DNA from: Bacteroidota bacterium
Lineage (GTDB): Bacteria > Bacteroidota > Rhodothermia > Rhodothermales > JAHQVL01
NCBI GenBank assembly: GCA_039111535.1
Contig: JBCCIM010000051.1
Location: 1 to 33,556 of the forward strand
Direction of reading: 5' to 3'
Length of the DNA: 33,556 nt
This document shows positions 25,118 through 33,556 of this stretch, one piece after another. The stretch's first letter is position 1; each line of letters begins with the position of its first letter. The notes below the pieces were generated by a model. The model ran no database searches and had not been told where the DNA came from. It worked only from the letters and a program-made list of their open reading frames with translations. The translations under genes and the position numbers were made by a program.

Positions 25118-25660
25118 AAAATTGTGGGTTAAATGTTTCTAATGATGAAAAGCCCTACTGCCGTAGATAAGTCCCGGGATGTGCTTAATAAAAACATGGC
25201 GGATTAAACATGTCCTGGGTGTAATCTATCCGCAGTAACGAAAAGCTACAAGAAAATAGGCGTAAAAGACCGGAAGTATGCGACACGCAAAAATTGCTCT
25301 TTGTATTTTCACATTTGGTAATCTTCACCATCAGTGATGAAATTCGTGGCCAGGTCTGTGTTTTACAGTAGACAGTATCATCCGGAACCAATACATCCTC
25401 TCTTACATAATGGCCCTTATCCTGTATTAAATACAGACTTTCGCACACTAACCTGGGAAATGCTTAGTGTGGTGGGATTCTTGCGCTGCTTTAAGCCAGC
25501 GTAACAATCAGAGAAAACATCTCGGCTGCATTAAGCATATTGCCGGCTTTGTGTGTATTTCCTGGTAGCAAGCCTGTTATTCTTTTCAGGGTATTTTGTG
25601 ATACTGATACCGCCCGGCCCCATAACATAGCCTGGTAACCCTTTACATAGTTTGAAATAC
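25118..25660. other. Long divergent intergenic region
   Basis: 543 bases between paralogue B and the first CarboxypepD_reg gene. Frames in it are short and have no recognisable protein content. A small hairpin CACACTAA/TTAGTGTG (25444-25451 with 25464-25471) is present without a T tract. Promoters for both flanking genes are expected here, but I cannot place them. Confidence 0.4.
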
Positions 25661-26815
25661 ATGAAACGCTCTCCTGCCTTTTTTGCCCTGCTGTTTGCAG
25701 GCCTCTTTTTTGCCTTCTCCGGAACTGCTGTACAAGCACAGCAGGTTCCTGCAGCTGTTATAACCGGAACGGTGGTAGATGCTGAAACAGGTACGCCGTT
25801 GGCCGGCGCGCACGTTTTTATCGCTGAGTCGATGATTGGTACAACAACCGATGGCGATGGTCGGTACCGGCTTGAGCGTGTGCCGCTTGGTGCGCACCGC
25901 CTCTACGCCTCCATCATCGGTTTCGAGCCTGCCTTCCGCGACATCATGCTGCGTGAATCGCGGAGTTTCACCTTTGATTTCCAGATGAACGAAAGCGTGG
26001 CCGAGCTTGATGGGATTACGGTAGAAGCCCAGGGTGACAAACGCTGGAAGCGCCGGCTGCAACGGTTTACTAAAATCTTTGTGGGTGAAACGCCCAACTC
26101 GCGAGACACTAAAATCCTGAACCCCGAAGTACTCGATTTTGCAGACAAAGGGGGGACTTTGCTCGCTTTTGCAAACGACATCATCCAAATTGAAAACAAA
26201 GCCCTCGGCTATCGCATCCAATACTTCCTCAAAGACTTTAAAGCGGAGCCGTCTCGGATTCAGTACGATGGTGAACCATTGTACGAAGAGATGACACCAG
26301 AGAGTCCTGAGCAGGCGGCTATGTGGGAAGAAAACCGACGCAAAGCCTTTTACGGCTCTTTCCGCCACTTTATGCTTGCTGCAATTTCTGGTAAAGCCAA
26401 AGAGCACGGATTTGAGACGTTCCAGCGCGCCACACCAGCCGGCGCGGCTGGCCAGGGTACGTTTGAACGCGGCTCAGCCATGAACAACCAGCGGGTGCCC
26501 TTTGATGTAACCAAGTTGCTCAAAGACACCGACAACCCCAACGAAAAGCTGCTCGAACTTGACGGCGCCATCGAACTCATTTTCAAAGGTGAGCTCGAAA
26601 GCAAAGCCTATGTCGAATGGCAAAAAACGTTCGGCGGCCCCGGTGGCATCCGCGGCGATCGTTACCAGAAATCGCTCTTTTGGCAAGAAAACGGGCCAAC
26701 GCTGGTCGACTACAAAGGCGACATCCTGAACCCTTACGGCGTTACCGTATCAGGACATCTTGCTTTTGAACGCGTGGCCGACGAGCTCCCCAAGGAATAC
26801 CGCCCATCCCGGTAG
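25661..26815 (+). CDS. Exported CarboxypepD_reg-like domain protein, paralogue 1
   Basis: 384 residues. Signal peptide MKRSPAFFALLFAGLFFAF...AVQA cut before QQVP; I prefer this ATG to a TTG three codons upstream. Residues about 28-118 are a CarboxypepD_reg-like beta-sandwich (TGTVVDAETGTPLAGAHVFI, TTTDGDGRYRLERVPLG, YASIIGFEP). The remainder is a conserved C-terminal region (KRWKRRLQRFTKIFVGETPNSR, ENKALGYRIQYFLKDF, YDGEPLYEEMTP, RRKAFYGSFRHFMLA, NPYGVTVSGHLAFERVADELPKEYRPS). There is no TonB plug or barrel, so it is not a SusC receptor. It is related over its full length to the next gene. Probably periplasmic or surface; role unknown. Confidence 0.85.
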   Translation: MKRSPAFFALLFAGLFFAFSGTAVQAQQVPAAVITGTVVDAETGTPLAGAHVFIAESMIGTTTDGDGRYRLERVPLGAHRLYASIIGFEPAFRDIMLRESRSFTFDFQMNESVAELDGITVEAQGDKRWKRRLQRFTKIFVGETPNSRDTKILNPEVLDFADKGGTLLAFANDIIQIENKALGYRIQYFLKDFKAEPSRIQYDGEPLYEEMTPESPEQAAMWEENRRKAFYGSFRHFMLAAISGKAKEHGFETFQRATPAGAAGQGTFERGSAMNNQRVPFDVTKLLKDTDNPNEKLLELDGAIELIFKGELESKAYVEWQKTFGGPGGIRGDRYQKSLFWQENGPTLVDYKGDILNPYGVTVSGHLAFERVADELPKEYRPSR

Positions 26816-26952: not shown

Positions 26953-28110
26953 GTGAAGCACCCCATCGGACTCATAGCAATACTGCTGCTGCTCGTACCT
27001 GGCCACTTGATGGCGCAGTCCGATACCACGCTTGTATCTGGTCCTTTACCGGAAGCTAAGGCGGACCTTCTCTTGGCCGACACCACCGGCGCTGTTGTTG
27101 GAACTGCTACAGATGCAAGCACAGGCACGCCCCTGGCCGGCGCGCACGCCTTTGTCGGCGAAACAATGATCGGAACGGCAACTGATGCAGACGGCCGATT
27201 TGAGCTGACCAACGTCCCCCCTGGCCCGCACACCCTCTGGATCTCCATGATTGGTTTCGAGCCAGAGAAGCAAGACTTTATGGTTGGAGATACCACCAGC
27301 TTTACATTTGACCTCGCGCTAGAACCCATGGTTTTGGAGTTAGGGGAAGTGACTGTCAATGCAAGAAAGGACCGGCGTTGGAGGAAACGCTACAACACCT
27401 TTGAACGCCTCTTTCTGGGAGAATCTGATCTGTCAGATTTTGTGACCATCACAAATAAAGAGGTCCTCGATTTTGACGCAAACTGGTTGGGCCGCTTCTC
27501 GGCTAAAGCTGCTGAGTCGTTACTCATCGAAAATGAGGCGCTCGGCTACCGTGTTCAATACGTGTTAAAAGAGTTTTCCAGAGAAGGCATTACCATCAGA
27601 TATGATGGCGATCCTTTTTTTGAAGAGATGGAGCCTGCAACAGCGGAGCAGGCACTTATGTGGGACGAGAACAGGAAAGCAGCTTTTCTTGGCTCATTCA
27701 AACACTTCCTCCTTGCCCTATTGAAGGGCAACACCTATGAAGCCGGCTTCAGGCTTAAGCAAATTCCATCCGTAGATGACATCCGCAACCAGAACCGTCG
27801 CTTCAGCATTGACCCCGATGACTTGTTACGCGCCGGCGAAAAGCCCGGTGATTTGTTGCTGGCTTTCCGCGGGGTTATCGAAATCACGTACGTCAATGAG
27901 TATGAAGGCGCGGACTACCAGAAATGGCAAGGTAGTTCACCACACCGCCGGCAGCAACACCAGCGTTCGTGGATTCGGCTTACAACCGGCCCTACCCTTA
28001 TAGATCCAATAGGCGAAATTGTAGACCCGTACGGGGTCACAGTATATGGCTATTATGCCTTTGAACGGGTAGCCAATGATCTACCAAAAGAATATCGCAT
28101 CGACGGCTAA
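26953..28110 (+). CDS. Exported CarboxypepD_reg-like domain protein, paralogue 2
   Basis: 385 residues from a GTG start, which directly gives a good signal peptide (MKHPIGLIAILLLLVPGHLMA, cut before QSDT); no in-frame ATG is nearer. A linker of about 25 residues precedes the CarboxypepD_reg-like domain (VVGTATDASTGTPLAGAHAF, TATDADGRFELTNVPPG, WISMIGFEPE). The C-terminal region matches paralogue 1 (RRWRKRYNTFERLFLGES, ENEALGYRVQYVLKEF, YDGDPFFEEMEP, RKAAFLGSFKHFLLALL, DPYGVTVYGYYAFERVANDLPKEYRI). Its TAA stop touches the TGA of the convergent yraN gene. The 137-base gap from paralogue 1 contains the heptad hairpin, so the two may be cotranscribed with differential stability. Confidence 0.85.
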   Translation: MKHPIGLIAILLLLVPGHLMAQSDTTLVSGPLPEAKADLLLADTTGAVVGTATDASTGTPLAGAHAFVGETMIGTATDADGRFELTNVPPGPHTLWISMIGFEPEKQDFMVGDTTSFTFDLALEPMVLELGEVTVNARKDRRWRKRYNTFERLFLGESDLSDFVTITNKEVLDFDANWLGRFSAKAAESLLIENEALGYRVQYVLKEFSREGITIRYDGDPFFEEMEPATAEQALMWDENRKAAFLGSFKHFLLALLKGNTYEAGFRLKQIPSVDDIRNQNRRFSIDPDDLLRAGEKPGDLLLAFRGVIEITYVNEYEGADYQKWQGSSPHRRQQHQRSWIRLTTGPTLIDPIGEIVDPYGVTVYGYYAFERVANDLPKEYRIDG

Positions 28111-29448: not shown

Positions 29449-30240
29449 GTGAATCGATTAATAACGCTGACGTCAGATTTTGGCCTGCATGATGCCTACG
29501 TTGCTATCATGAAAGGTGTGATGCTTAACATTTCACCAGAGGCTCGGTTGCTCGACATCACCCACGGTGTGAGTCCGCAAGATGTCATGGAAGCAGCTTT
29601 TGTCCTCAGAAATGCGATCCCTTACTTTCCGGAAGACACCATCCACCTTGCCGTTGTAGATCCGGGTGTTGGTACCAGCCGCAAGGCCATTGCGCTTAGA
29701 AAAGGCCGGCAATGGTTTGTGGGGCCAGACAATGGATTGTTCTCTCTCGTGCTCAATAGCGAACCACCGGACGAAGCCGTCGTGCTCGACAACCCTGCGT
29801 ACTGGTTAACAGATGCGCCTGCAAACACTTTCCATGGCCGCGATATTTTTGCCCCCGTTGCGGCCCATCTGTCTACCGGTAAGTCCCTCAGCGTACTCGG
29901 CACGCCAATCGATAGCATCGCCCCGCTACACTGGGCCTTGCCCATTGCAGACAAACAAGGGATTCAGGGGTGGGTTGTACATGTAGACAGGTTTGGGAAT
30001 TGTGTCACCAATATTTCTCGCTCGCTGATCAACAAGCAGCGTAACGGCAAAGCCGTCAAATGTTATGTCGGTTCGACCATCCTGAACAGCATTTTAACGA
30101 CCTACGGCAATACCGAGACCGGCGAACCGTTGATGTTATTTGACAGCAACGAATTGTTGGAAATCGCTGTAAACACGGGGAACGCATCGGACTTGTTGAA
30201 CATTCGAAAGGGATCACCCGTTAATCTGGTCTTTTCCTGA
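29449..30240 (+). CDS. S-adenosyl-L-methionine hydrolase (DUF62 / SAM hydroxide adenosyltransferase)
   Basis: 263 residues from a GTG start. All hallmarks of the DUF62 family are present in order: LTSDFGLHDAYVAIMKG with Asp10, LLDITHGVSPQD, VVDPGVGTSRKAI, FVGPDNGLFS, FHGRDIFAPVAAHL and DRFGNCVTNI in the C-terminal barrel. Characterised members use water or hydroxide to split SAM into adenosine and methionine; related halogenases use chloride or fluoride. The Asp/Arg/His set here (GRDIF, DITH) points to the hydroxide type. It is cytoplasmic. The next gene on the same strand begins 61 bases later and may be cotranscribed. Confidence 0.93.
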   Translation: MNRLITLTSDFGLHDAYVAIMKGVMLNISPEARLLDITHGVSPQDVMEAAFVLRNAIPYFPEDTIHLAVVDPGVGTSRKAIALRKGRQWFVGPDNGLFSLVLNSEPPDEAVVLDNPAYWLTDAPANTFHGRDIFAPVAAHLSTGKSLSVLGTPIDSIAPLHWALPIADKQGIQGWVVHVDRFGNCVTNISRSLINKQRNGKAVKCYVGSTILNSILTTYGNTETGEPLMLFDSNELLEIAVNTGNASDLLNIRKGSPVNLVFS

Positions 30241-30301: not shown

Positions 30302-31564
30302 ATGAGCAGTTCTTCTTCTACGGAGTACGAATTTCAAGGCATGATGAAGCACCTGGAGTCATTATACGCCATGGCCCAGGTCCTTACCCTCGATGCCTCG
30401 CGGGCTGAGGCGCTGGTTCAGGCTACCTTCGACAGGGCCCTTCGGATTCGAGAGAAAAACCTGGTTGCTCCCGGCGATCGCCGACACATGTTGCAGCTCC
30501 TGATACAAGTGTATCACGAACAGAAACAAACACCTCCCCCCCTGCCGGCACCTAACGAAGTACCACCGCCACCATCACAGACCAAAGCCAGCTTTAAACA
30601 ACACATTCTAAACCAGTACCTTCGCCAGGCAGTACCAGCAAGCTTTGCCGCACTAAGCGATCTTGACCGCGTTGTACTCTCCATGTGCGAAGCCAACGGC
30701 CTGTCAAATGCAGACGCTGCGCTTATCCTGAGTGGCGACTCGGATAGTGTGAACCAGCAGCGCATGCTGGCGCGGCAGCGGTTTGCGGAAAATATCACAG
30801 CCAATGCGCCGGCAACGGTTGCTGACATCCTCAACGAAACCAAACCTGCAGACTGGATTCCCCAGGCACTTCGCCGCGCACTGAAATCCGAACTGAATGC
30901 CGTCCCCCCCACCCTCGAACCTAAAATTCAGGCCTCTTTTTCGAGCCACAACCCGGAAGCTGCGCGCCGCGCCCTTTCAGCAGACACAACCAGGAAAGCC
31001 GAAAATGCAAATCAAAACAGGCTTTCTCGGGGCCTCATGACCATCTTCCTCATTCTCGCTGCCGGCTTTATCGGATACATCGGATCGAGTGTATTGATGA
31101 AACAACCCGATGCCAATTTGCTCACCCTGTCTGCTTCCCAGGCTCCCCGCGTAGAAACGGTACTGGCAACTGCAGACCAGGCTGAAGCTGAAAAATTTGT
31201 ACAACAGCAAATGCGCTGGCGACTGACCCTCCCCGACATTGAGCAAAGTGAATTCACTGGCGTTGGCATTAGCGAAATTGCTGATGATGTGCGTGTACCG
31301 GTTTTCCTGTACAAAGACAACATGGACGCAAAGAGCGAATACATCACCCTCTATGCATTTACTTATGCCCTGCTCGATGAATACCCGGACCGGATTCAGC
31401 TACAAAGCGATATCCTGCAGGCCATTACACGGGAAGAGCAATTTGATTTGCGTGACCTGAACGAAAAACAGAAATTTGTGATCTGGCGAAAACGGGATGA
31501 TATTTTCATGGCGGTAACGTCTATCGACCCCGAAGCATTGCGTGACCGGATAACCGTTAACTAG
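30302..31564 (+). CDS. Membrane protein with sigma-factor-like N-terminus and anti-sigma-like C-terminus
   Basis: 420 residues, not a family I can name. Residues 20-49 (LYAMAQVLTLDASRAEALVQATFDRALRI in part) resemble region 2 of ECF sigma factors (LY...A..LT.D...AEDLVQ.TF.RAL). Residues 117-163 (ALSDLDRVVLSMCEANGLSN, ADAALILSGDSDSVNQQRML) resemble region 4. A Pro-rich linker (77-91) separates them. One membrane segment is at 243-263. The C-terminal domain (330-420) has VPVFLYKDN, YITLYAFTYAL, FVIWRKRDDIFMAVTSIDPEALRD, a pattern like the outer domain of ECF anti-sigma factors. A self-tethered or degenerate sigma/anti-sigma fusion is my inference. No zinc-finger HxxxCxxC is seen. Confidence 0.82.
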   Translation: MSSSSSTEYEFQGMMKHLESLYAMAQVLTLDASRAEALVQATFDRALRIREKNLVAPGDRRHMLQLLIQVYHEQKQTPPPLPAPNEVPPPPSQTKASFKQHILNQYLRQAVPASFAALSDLDRVVLSMCEANGLSNADAALILSGDSDSVNQQRMLARQRFAENITANAPATVADILNETKPADWIPQALRRALKSELNAVPPTLEPKIQASFSSHNPEAARRALSADTTRKAENANQNRLSRGLMTIFLILAAGFIGYIGSSVLMKQPDANLLTLSASQAPRVETVLATADQAEAEKFVQQQMRWRLTLPDIEQSEFTGVGISEIADDVRVPVFLYKDNMDAKSEYITLYAFTYALLDEYPDRIQLQSDILQAITREEQFDLRDLNEKQKFVIWRKRDDIFMAVTSIDPEALRDRITVN

Positions 31565-31928
31565 AGGGATTGCTTTTTGTGACAAGCCGCCTTCTTGACA
31601 TGCTCTAAGCCCTTTAGTAAAATTATCATTGGCTAATTAAGGCTGAAATCATCATTTCAAGTGTTATCTCTTTACTATTCTTTTTAATACACTTCTTTGT
31701 TACCTACACAATATCTGGATATTCTTAGTACTTGAAATAGTTACCATTTTTCGGATTCAAATACGGACCTACTCCCTACTCTGTTAATTTGGAATCACAC
31801 ATTACCGAGTTAGCCAATTTTGTCACGACAATAAGTTGAGCTTTAGGTTTAAAAAAACACAATCCAGGAAAAAACGAAAAACACAACATGTGCAATTTAT
31901 TGCACGATCCTCATATATTCATACCAAC
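31565..31928. other. AT-rich intergenic region marking a compositional switch
   Basis: About 360 bases with strongly raised A+T, no recognisable gene, and long T and A runs. It includes an inverted repeat ATTTCAAGT/ACTTGAAAT (31654-31662 and 31730-31738) and, just before the downstream ATG, the palindrome GTGCAAT-TT-ATTGCAC (31890-31905), which could be an operator or a translational hairpin. A TTG at 31836 opens the same frame as the next gene and would add a basic 31-residue N-terminus. Confidence 0.4.
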
Positions 31929-33365
31929 ATGGACCAACAAAGGAAACAGATATATTTTGGGCGGCATGGAGAACAACTACTAAAATGGCTGTCACATGAT
32001 TGGGTTAACATTGGTCCATCAGTATGCATAGTAGAAGGCTTTTCGGGAGTCGGTAAAAAAAATGTAGCACTTCGACTTTTAAGTCAACTCGAAGAGACGA
32101 ATTACATTCCAATCTTGGTAGACACCCTGGATAGTGAAAGTACCTTAATAGATGATTTGCTTCTGAATTTAGCGGAGGAACTGGAGCTCAAAGGAGTTTC
32201 GAAACTTGTTGATGCAATAGACCAAGGCAAAGATCTTCTCCATGCATTTCAGCAAGTACTCATGCAACCTGTAGTTATTGTAATCGATAATTTTCAGCGC
32301 GCTTTAAATACGAGTTCAGGTAGACCAACAAAGCTCCTTGAAAATCTTTTAAAAAGAATATCAAACAGAGAACAAAGCGGAAGACTTCTACTGCTGAGCA
32401 ACCGTAGTGTCGAACGCGCACGTTGGTCAGAATCCATTGAAAAACGCATACTTTATGCACTCGAACAAGATGAAGCAGAAGAGTTACTTGCGCAGTTATT
32501 AAAGAAGGGTAAAAGAGAAAAGGAGATACCCTCAGAACGTCGAGCCGACATTGTAGCGGCTTTGGGAAGAAACCCACGAGCAATACATACTTTAGTAGAA
32601 AGCTTGAGATGGACTTCAATTGAAGAGCTCATTGGTGAAAACCCAAATCTCTGGGAAATTCGAGATAGGGACGTTTCGTCAGAGTTGCTGCGCGAACTAG
32701 AAAAAACGCTTTTACTTAATACTCTGAAGCATCTCTCAGAACCCGCTCTCAGAACTTTGAATGCACTGACCGTTTATAGAAAATCAATTTCAAGTGGGCC
32801 CTTCAAACACATGTTTGCGGACCAAGATCAAGGTCCGCAGATGAGGACTGAATTGATCAACATGTTTCTGATCGATCATAATGTAGGTTGGTACACACTC
32901 CACCCACTCGTGCGCGAGATAACACTAGATAGGCTAAGGGCACAACCTGATAAATTGCGCGGCTTACACTCATTGGCTGCCAATCACTATGCCAGTAAAT
33001 TTAAAGGCCACTCTCTTGAAGGTAAAGCGAAATTGGGTGGGTCATATGTCGAAGCGCGGTATCATCTAGTCAGAGCTAAGAGAGAGGAAGAATTAGGAAA
33101 AATTGCGCGTAACTTTGAACATTATGTACGGCAGAGTTTCAGTGATACCTCTAAAGTGCCCAAAGACCCTAACGAGCTGAATGAACGCATTGCTCTGCTC
33201 TCAGGCTTGTTAAAGCACCAGGGTGCTAAAGGATTAGAGTACCACTTAGCCCGTTGTTATGTAAAGAGGTCCAAGCAGGGTGATCGGCGAAAGGCACTTT
33301 TGCATTTACGGTCTGCAACTGGCATATATGCCGAGCTTTTATCCTTGGCCCTGAACGTTGAGTAA
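31929..33365 (+). CDS. STAND/NB-ARC-type ATP-binding protein, probably horizontally acquired
   Basis: 478 residues from the ATG. IYFGRHGEQLLKWL at 8-21 matches the start of many STAND domains. The P-loop is VEGFSGVGKKN (35-45), with Lys44 where Ser/Thr is expected. Walker B is VVIVIDNF at 115-122, the sensor strand LLLLSNRS at 153-160, and the GxP-type helix ALGRNPRAIHTL at 211-222. A winged-helix part (about 262-330) ends with the MHD-like YTLHPLVRE. The C-terminal 150 residues are helical, with a TPR-like start (YHLARCYVKRS...RRKALLHLRSA). No effector domain is seen. The region is AT-rich (24/60 G+C in one sampled line against 34/60 in the previous gene). STAND proteins act in signalling or phage defence; the role here is unknown. 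Confidence 0.85.
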   Translation: MDQQRKQIYFGRHGEQLLKWLSHDWVNIGPSVCIVEGFSGVGKKNVALRLLSQLEETNYIPILVDTLDSESTLIDDLLLNLAEELELKGVSKLVDAIDQGKDLLHAFQQVLMQPVVIVIDNFQRALNTSSGRPTKLLENLLKRISNREQSGRLLLLSNRSVERARWSESIEKRILYALEQDEAEELLAQLLKKGKREKEIPSERRADIVAALGRNPRAIHTLVESLRWTSIEELIGENPNLWEIRDRDVSSELLRELEKTLLLNTLKHLSEPALRTLNALTVYRKSISSGPFKHMFADQDQGPQMRTELINMFLIDHNVGWYTLHPLVREITLDRLRAQPDKLRGLHSLAANHYASKFKGHSLEGKAKLGGSYVEARYHLVRAKREEELGKIARNFEHYVRQSFSDTSKVPKDPNELNERIALLSGLLKHQGAKGLEYHLARCYVKRSKQGDRRKALLHLRSATGIYAELLSLALNVE

Positions 33366-33556
33366 CTCCTTGTATGTATAAGCACATATACCGTTGAGTT
33401 CAGTTGGATCTCGGACCCTAATTCAGGAGTTGGCTACTTCATGCTAGCCGTAGGCAATTTGCTACGCTAGCACAAACGTTCTAGACAGTCTGACACTACA
33501 GAACACGTGGCACACGTGCATGCTGAAACCTGTGGGTTGTAGTGGGCAGTGGAGGC
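33366..33556. other. Non-coding tail of the window
   Basis: 191 bases after the STAND gene. It holds a bulged hairpin (GCTAG + CGTAG at 33443-33453 with CTACG + CTAGC at 33462-33471, no T tract) and two CACGTG palindromes (33504-33509 and 33513-33518). No gene start is visible on either strand. Confidence 0.35.

Follow-up and report, generated by a model that had tools for sequence, protein, structure and literature searches.

The window examined here is a 33,556-nucleotide stretch of DNA from a member of the order Rhodothermales (Bacteroidota), and its features are given as positions on the forward (+) strand, on which the fusion gene, its domains and the SAM_HAT gene described below are read. 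At positions 30302..31564 lies a gene that begins with an ATG at 30302, terminates with a stop codon at 31562-31564 and encodes a protein of 420 amino acids, in which a sigma-like domain, a membrane helix and an anti-sigma outer domain appear to be joined. This description is based upon the open reading frame, its relatives and an AlphaFold2 (AF2) model. A sequence-only reading of the window had placed a frame at 30302-31564 and proposed that a region-2-like segment, a Pro-rich linker, a region-4-like segment, a single membrane helix and an outer domain follow one another in one chain. The coordinates were borne out, and all of these parts were recognized in the sequence and in the AF2 model. 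It had also called for a search for other members, and relatives of the protein were found in 47 of 60 genomes of the order. The named records among them comprise Rhodothermus, Roseithermus and many metagenome-assembled genomes, which places the family in the Rhodothermales. When the window protein is scanned alone, its match to the Pfam model Sigma70_r4_2 (22.2 bits, 1.1e-4) falls below the curated cut-off of 25.7, and no match was found to Sigma70_r2 (PF04542), a model with 31 hits elsewhere in this genome. Over residues 8-164 the lone protein does match a small number of NCBIfam ECF models, the best at 7.9e-6. With scores of this kind, the sigma part would escape annotation of single sequences.

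The fusion gene has a conserved upstream partner, a gene for SAM hydroxide adenosyltransferase (SAM_HAT; 29449..30240), identified by its Pfam matches (PF01887/PF20257), by synteny and by 4-nt overlaps with the fusion gene. In essentially all loci whose context could be read, the fusion gene follows SAM_HAT, and the upstream context also includes YraN and, in many of these loci, a GbsR/MarR-type regulator on the opposite strand. SAM_HAT and the fusion gene are 61 nt apart in the window. In several genera (e.g., loci L041, L043, L047, L048, L062, and L066), the SAM_HAT stop and the start of the fusion gene share 4 nt, and these overlaps point to an operon, with translational coupling of SAM breakdown with the membrane protein. 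Elsewhere in the window, two adjacent genes (25652-26815 and 26953-28110) encode paralogous secreted proteins with an N-terminal stretch that, judged by eye, is carboxypeptidase-regulatory-like. Immediately past the fusion gene, at 31565-33556, the DNA becomes poorer in GC, at 0.36-0.45 compared with about 0.52 before. The open reading frame at 31836-33365 encodes an AAA-type ATPase of 509 amino acids (AAA_22, 3e-8) for which there was no PADLOC match, and the stretch as a whole looks like a horizontally acquired one.

The AF2 model of the whole protein, made from an alignment of 17 sequences (mean pLDDT 83), has sigma2 helices in residues 4-76, sigma4 helices in residues 92-167, more helices in residues 171-228, a membrane helix at residues 242-265 and an alpha/beta domain at residues 272-420. 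The sigma2-like domain (residues 4-76; 30311..30529) is made up of helices 4-15, 18-29, 32-49, and 60-76, which VIA-align superimposes on ECF sigma2. It is followed by a Pro-rich linker at about residues 77-97 (30530..30592), evident in the sequence and modeled with lower confidence, and by a sigma4-like helix-turn-helix domain (residues 98-167; 30593..30802) that matches Sigma70_r4_2 at E 1e-4 and, in Foldseek, region 4 of E. coli sigma-E with a TM score of 0.81. A profile made from 23 aligned relatives matched solved ECF sigma factors across both domains with an E value of 6.8e-12 (SigE), and both Foldseek and VIA-align returned ECF sigmas over residues 3-177, among them SigH (Z 11.7 in VIA-align). 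We read the high overall rmsd as reflecting a free angle between the modeled sigma2 and sigma4 domains. Profile and model comparisons thus agree in predicting that residues 3-177 carry the ECF sigma fold, consisting of sigma2, a Pro-rich linker and sigma4. The sigma2 and sigma4 helices on which the sequence-only reading had staked itself beforehand, in residues 15-165, were predicted by AF2 and matched by VIA-align.

Between the sigma-like half and the membrane lies a stretch (residues 188-243; 30863..31030) that is probably a remnant of the last helix of an anti-sigma domain, together with a "PP-L---I" stretch. The hhalign match of the family to anti-sigmas starts at residue 188, and the cytoplasmic piece is weak alone (2% probability, not significant). 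The single membrane helix (residues 242-265; 31025..31096), seen in the AF2 model, has a hydropathy peak of 2.14, with four Lys or Arg residues before it and two after it. The charge around the helix predicts an N-in/C-out topology. The outer domain (residues 272-420; 31115..31561) was also predicted alone, with a pLDDT of 94.5, and in family alignments it is conserved more strongly than the sigma part. Its most conserved motif, W-R-x-R-D-D-I (residues 395-401; 31484..31504), consists of invariant or nearly invariant columns. No Pfam family was found for the outer domain, and there was no match to it among PDB sequences. The best match of its predicted fold is the C-terminal domain of RseB/MucB (VIA-align Z 7.7, 3.0 Å over 91 residues), the next unrelated rows having a Z of about 5. 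This likeness between a model and a known fold is suggestive only and no proof. RseB and MucB are separate periplasmic proteins, unlike the outer domain of the fusion, and no sequence match to them was found. Kinases also appear in the fold lists (Z 4.8 and below), and we discounted them as generic sheet matches.

We searched 296 genomes of the phylum with a profile of the outer domain (A4). Outside the order, the domain sits in proteins of about 275-330 amino acids. Four of these (L119, L120, L137, and L138) are classical membrane anti-sigmas that have an H-C-C motif in addition to the outer domain, and their genes overlap an ECF sigma gene or lie less than 100 nt from it. The zf-HC2 domain scores above the Pfam cut-off in L119 and L137 and slightly below it in L138. 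In L121-L134 the outer domain stands behind a Cys-less domain, which in one case nearly passes the RseA_N threshold. When the fusion family was aligned to the anti-sigmas with hhalign, residues 188-419 of the fusion corresponded to anti-sigma residues 52-274 (99.7%, E 2e-25). Based upon the outer-domain profile, the zf-HC2 matches and the hhalign result, the outer domain is homologous to that of zinc anti-sigma factors (ZAS), likewise behind one membrane helix. Homology of the C-terminal domain to anti-sigma proteins, the other test that the sequence-only reading had set for itself, was thereby found, and its statement that a zinc-binding anti-sigma motif is absent also held: when the cytoplasmic parts of the window protein and of 31 relatives were checked, none had CxxC or H-x3-C-x2-C. 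The alignment begins past the zinc-binding part of the anti-sigma, which would explain why the fusion lacks the motif. As a separate observation, the RseA-like proteins L121-L134, which come from the same class outside the order, have no adjoining sigma gene, and the ortholog of the partner sigma is encoded elsewhere in the genome. These may possibly be anti-sigmas that act in trans.

The sigma part is most similar to the partners of these same anti-sigmas. When its profile was used to rank 41 ECF sigmas, the partners of L119, L120, L137, and L138 came out on top (56.5, 50.3, 50.1, and 48.3 bits), and no other ECF scored above 40.2 bits; among these were the ECFs of the window's own genome, which we collected by a family search. 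A tree was built that comprised 15 fusions together with 20 partner-sigma orthologs and 29 further ECFs. In it the fusions form one group (100/100) with long branches, and fusions and orthologs together split from the 29 other ECFs (100/99). The ortholog sigmas form no clade of their own in the best tree, and constraining them to one clade was not rejected (p-AU 0.35), so that the fusions may sit inside or beside the ortholog group. By these comparisons, the nearest relatives of the two halves of the fusion are the partners in a single sigma/anti-sigma pair that occurs outside the order. In many loci outside the class, too, a gene for an anti-sigma-like protein comes after the ortholog sigma gene. 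Within the class but outside the order, the ortholog sigma was found in 24 genomes at E <1e-65 and in 96 at 1e-30 or better, and no free ortholog was among the matches from the genomes of the order that were searched. When the threshold was relaxed, the closest match in the order to the ortholog sigma had an E value of 4e-24 and 41% identity, and representatives of such matches group with the other ECFs in the sigma tree. It would appear that the order carries the fusion instead of a free sigma that is conserved across the class and the phylum outside it.

The unfused pair outside the order, an ECF sigma and a zf-HC2/RseA-like anti-sigma (L119, L120, L137, and L138, with the Cys-less L121-L134), shares with the fusion a homologous sigma, membrane helix and outer domain, and is the probable ancestor of the fusion. 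It differs in being encoded by two genes, in having intact promoter-recognition residues and, in the operon-encoded forms, in having a zinc-binding domain. The simplest history is that the pair was fused into one chain. The operon would have fused in the ancestor of the order, with the junction probably inside the cytoplasmic domain of the anti-sigma, such that the zinc-binding helices were lost. Because the cytoplasmic piece is not significant alone, we place the exact junction only tentatively. No match to SAM_HAT was obtained in the unfused loci, and we infer that the pair reached the SAM_HAT neighborhood around the time of fusion.

Alignment of the 15 fusions to the ortholog sigmas revealed what the sigma part has lost. 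In the sigma2-like domain, the region 2.4 residues K110, N111, N115, and R118, which serve in -10 recognition, are kept in none of the 15 fusions. In the sigma4-like domain, the -35 recognition residues of region 4.2 fare similarly, with S204, H207, and G209 absent from all of them, R203 retained in one and R205 in four. On average the 2.4 and 4.2 helices each have a net charge of +5.5 in the orthologs, against -0.3 and 0.0, respectively, in the fusions. In region 2.2, D79 is found in 2/15 fusions and Q82 in 1/15; the sigma70 counterparts of these two residues bind the clamp helix of RNA polymerase. Hydrophobic core positions are retained (L80 in all 15 fusions, L180 and A67 in 14 each). In addition, several members match models of the sigma-like domain of PhyR (PhyR_sigma-like and PhyR_sigma2; best 1.8e-7) better than they match Sigma70_r2 (best 0.017). 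From the absence of the conserved -10 and -35 contact residues, the sigma part would seem no longer to read promoters. The sequence-only reading had offered two alternatives, a degenerate sigma part that may serve as a decoy or an active one released by proteolysis. The lost contact residues speak for degeneration and, by the same token, disfavor the active form.

The selective constraint on the sigma part varies. Among seven genomes of genus g5, Nei-Gojobori estimates of dN/dS were mostly 0.12-0.25 for the sigma part (the exceptions being one near-identical pair at 0.54 and one distant pair at 0.33) and 0.05-0.19 for the outer domain. In genus g15, the corresponding ranges were 0.25-0.73 and 0.23-0.77. 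The sigma part is thus clearly constrained in g5 and less so in g15. It is present in 31 of the 44 members sampled, across most families of the order. In a tree of the outer domain rooted on the anti-sigmas, members without a sigma part occur in two places (family f14, and families f9 and f12 together) among sigma-bearing ones. The simplest reading of this tree is that the sigma part was lost at least twice from a fused ancestor, while the rest of the protein, membrane helix and outer domain, stayed in place behind SAM_HAT; the sigma part would accordingly be dispensable in those lineages. In the sigma-less members, no more than about 65 nt separate the SAM_HAT stop from the gene start, and the membrane helix is reached after 15-160 residues, a distance short enough to indicate that the sigma part is truly absent. 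Other members depart from the common form in their own ways. In the SAM_HAT-linked gene at L135 4323-5273 (G005), from family f4, the membrane helix is preceded by no more than a brief HTH-like segment, which may be a sigma part that has been reduced further. In the complete chromosome of Roseithermus sacchariphilus (L031 5300-7300, L074 3641-5290), the sigma and membrane/outer parts are in different frames, through either a real frameshift or a sequencing error, and a similar split is present in L032 (G024).

How the protein is understood depends upon what the sigma part now does. One could suppose that its resemblance to a sigma factor is a generic helical or helix-turn-helix coincidence in an unrelated membrane regulator, as the lone window sequence, lying under the curated cut-offs and missed by PF04542, might suggest. 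We give this very little credence. A profile match across two domains (E 7e-12) accompanied by a two-domain fold match, a specific likeness to the sigmas that pair with the same anti-sigma, and the 100/99 split in the tree leave the idea already nearly refuted. A better-founded precedent is that of working fusions. In Pseudomonas putida, an active sigma is set free from IutY (ECF243) when Prc and RseP cleave the protein, and the ECF48, ECF52 and ECF53 fusions combine zinc fingers with membrane helices (PMC8999054, PMC5411451, PMC5826349). Like the fusion described here, IutY, SCO4117 (ECF52), ECF48, and ECF53 have an N-terminal ECF sigma followed by a membrane helix and an outer part derived from an anti-sigma. 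Our protein might be a membrane-tethered ECF sigma that is released by site-1/site-2 (RseP) proteolysis, as are IutY or SCO4117, and has an altered promoter specificity. The order of its parts is that of the known fusions (PMC8999054), site-2-type (RseP-type) M50 proteases are encoded in the genome, and the sigma fold is retained and under selection. We nevertheless think such a role quite improbable. In the known fusions the sigma either works or should be freed by proteolysis. The 15 members compared here have lost all or nearly all of the -10/-35 contacts and of the positive charge on the two DNA helices, together with most of the region 2.2 residues that would bind RNA polymerase; and two lineages have discarded the sigma part altogether. 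Furthermore, the ECF52-type fusions keep a zinc finger, and the window family has no zinc site and is tied to SAM_HAT.

The reading that we favor, with modest confidence, is that of a fused sigma/anti-sigma protein whose sigma part has become an envelope-anchored mimic, and not a promoter-reading sigma factor. The loss of the promoter-reading residues combined with purifying selection in g5 makes a mimic preferable to a releasable sigma. The known sigma mimic PhyR of the Alphaproteobacteria offers a parallel: it too has a sigma-shaped domain that does not itself read promoters, and, as noted above, several members match its models. PhyR is soluble, has a receiver domain and binds NepR; the fusion has a membrane anchor instead, and no receiver domain was detected in it by Pfam or in the AF2 model. 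In the fusion, the outer domain would still sense the envelope, or be protected or cleaved in the way usual for such domains of anti-sigmas. On the cytoplasmic side, the sigma-shaped domain would bind a protein partner at the membrane, and not RNA polymerase. The putative partner may be a different anti-sigma factor or a new binding protein connected with SAM metabolism. The three zf-HC2 proteins of the window genome that match nearly the whole model each sit behind their own ECF gene, so that a mimic would lack an obvious orphan among the zinc anti-sigmas as its target, which counts against this reading. So do the losses of the sigma part, of which there were at least two, and the looser constraint in g15. 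The losses and the looser constraint also favor the main rival, in which the sigma part is a fading relic, a structural cap that is being lost, and what still matters is confined to the membrane helix and the outer domain in their coupling to SAM_HAT. That f14 and f9 with f12 independently dropped the sigma part and kept the rest behind SAM_HAT, that the C-terminal domain is the better conserved of the two, and that the RNA polymerase contacts D79 and Q82 have largely gone are all as a relic would have it. The low dN/dS of the sigma part in most comparisons among the seven g5 genomes is not, nor is the persistence of the domain in 31 of 44 members from most families, as a relic dating from the ancestor of the order should have eroded further. 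We consider a relic unlikely, while taking it more seriously than a released sigma.

Fusions of a sigma with its anti-sigma are already known; a fused sigma that is blind to promoters appears to be new. In the ECF-fusion literature consulted (reviews of classification and evolution), we came across neither an account of this family nor one of a fusion whose sigma part lost promoter-recognition residues, and a literature search on membrane-bound sigma factors returned nothing relevant. The broader proposal, that in this one order a switch widespread in the class collapsed into a promoter-blind transmembrane sigma mimic, which passes on envelope signals through protein binding and is coupled to SAM breakdown, is one to which we would assign slightly worse than even chances. 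As single-sequence scans miss the sigma part, other collapsed sigma/anti-sigma switches may have been overlooked. The family would be a natural example of an entire sigma/anti-sigma circuit condensed into one molecule, its transcription function apparently given up, with the fused, degenerate and sigma-less states still alive in related genera. It thereby allows tests of how a sigma might be repurposed as a protein-binding module, of what an anti-sigma outer domain senses alone, and of how a lineage copes without a sigma that its relatives keep.
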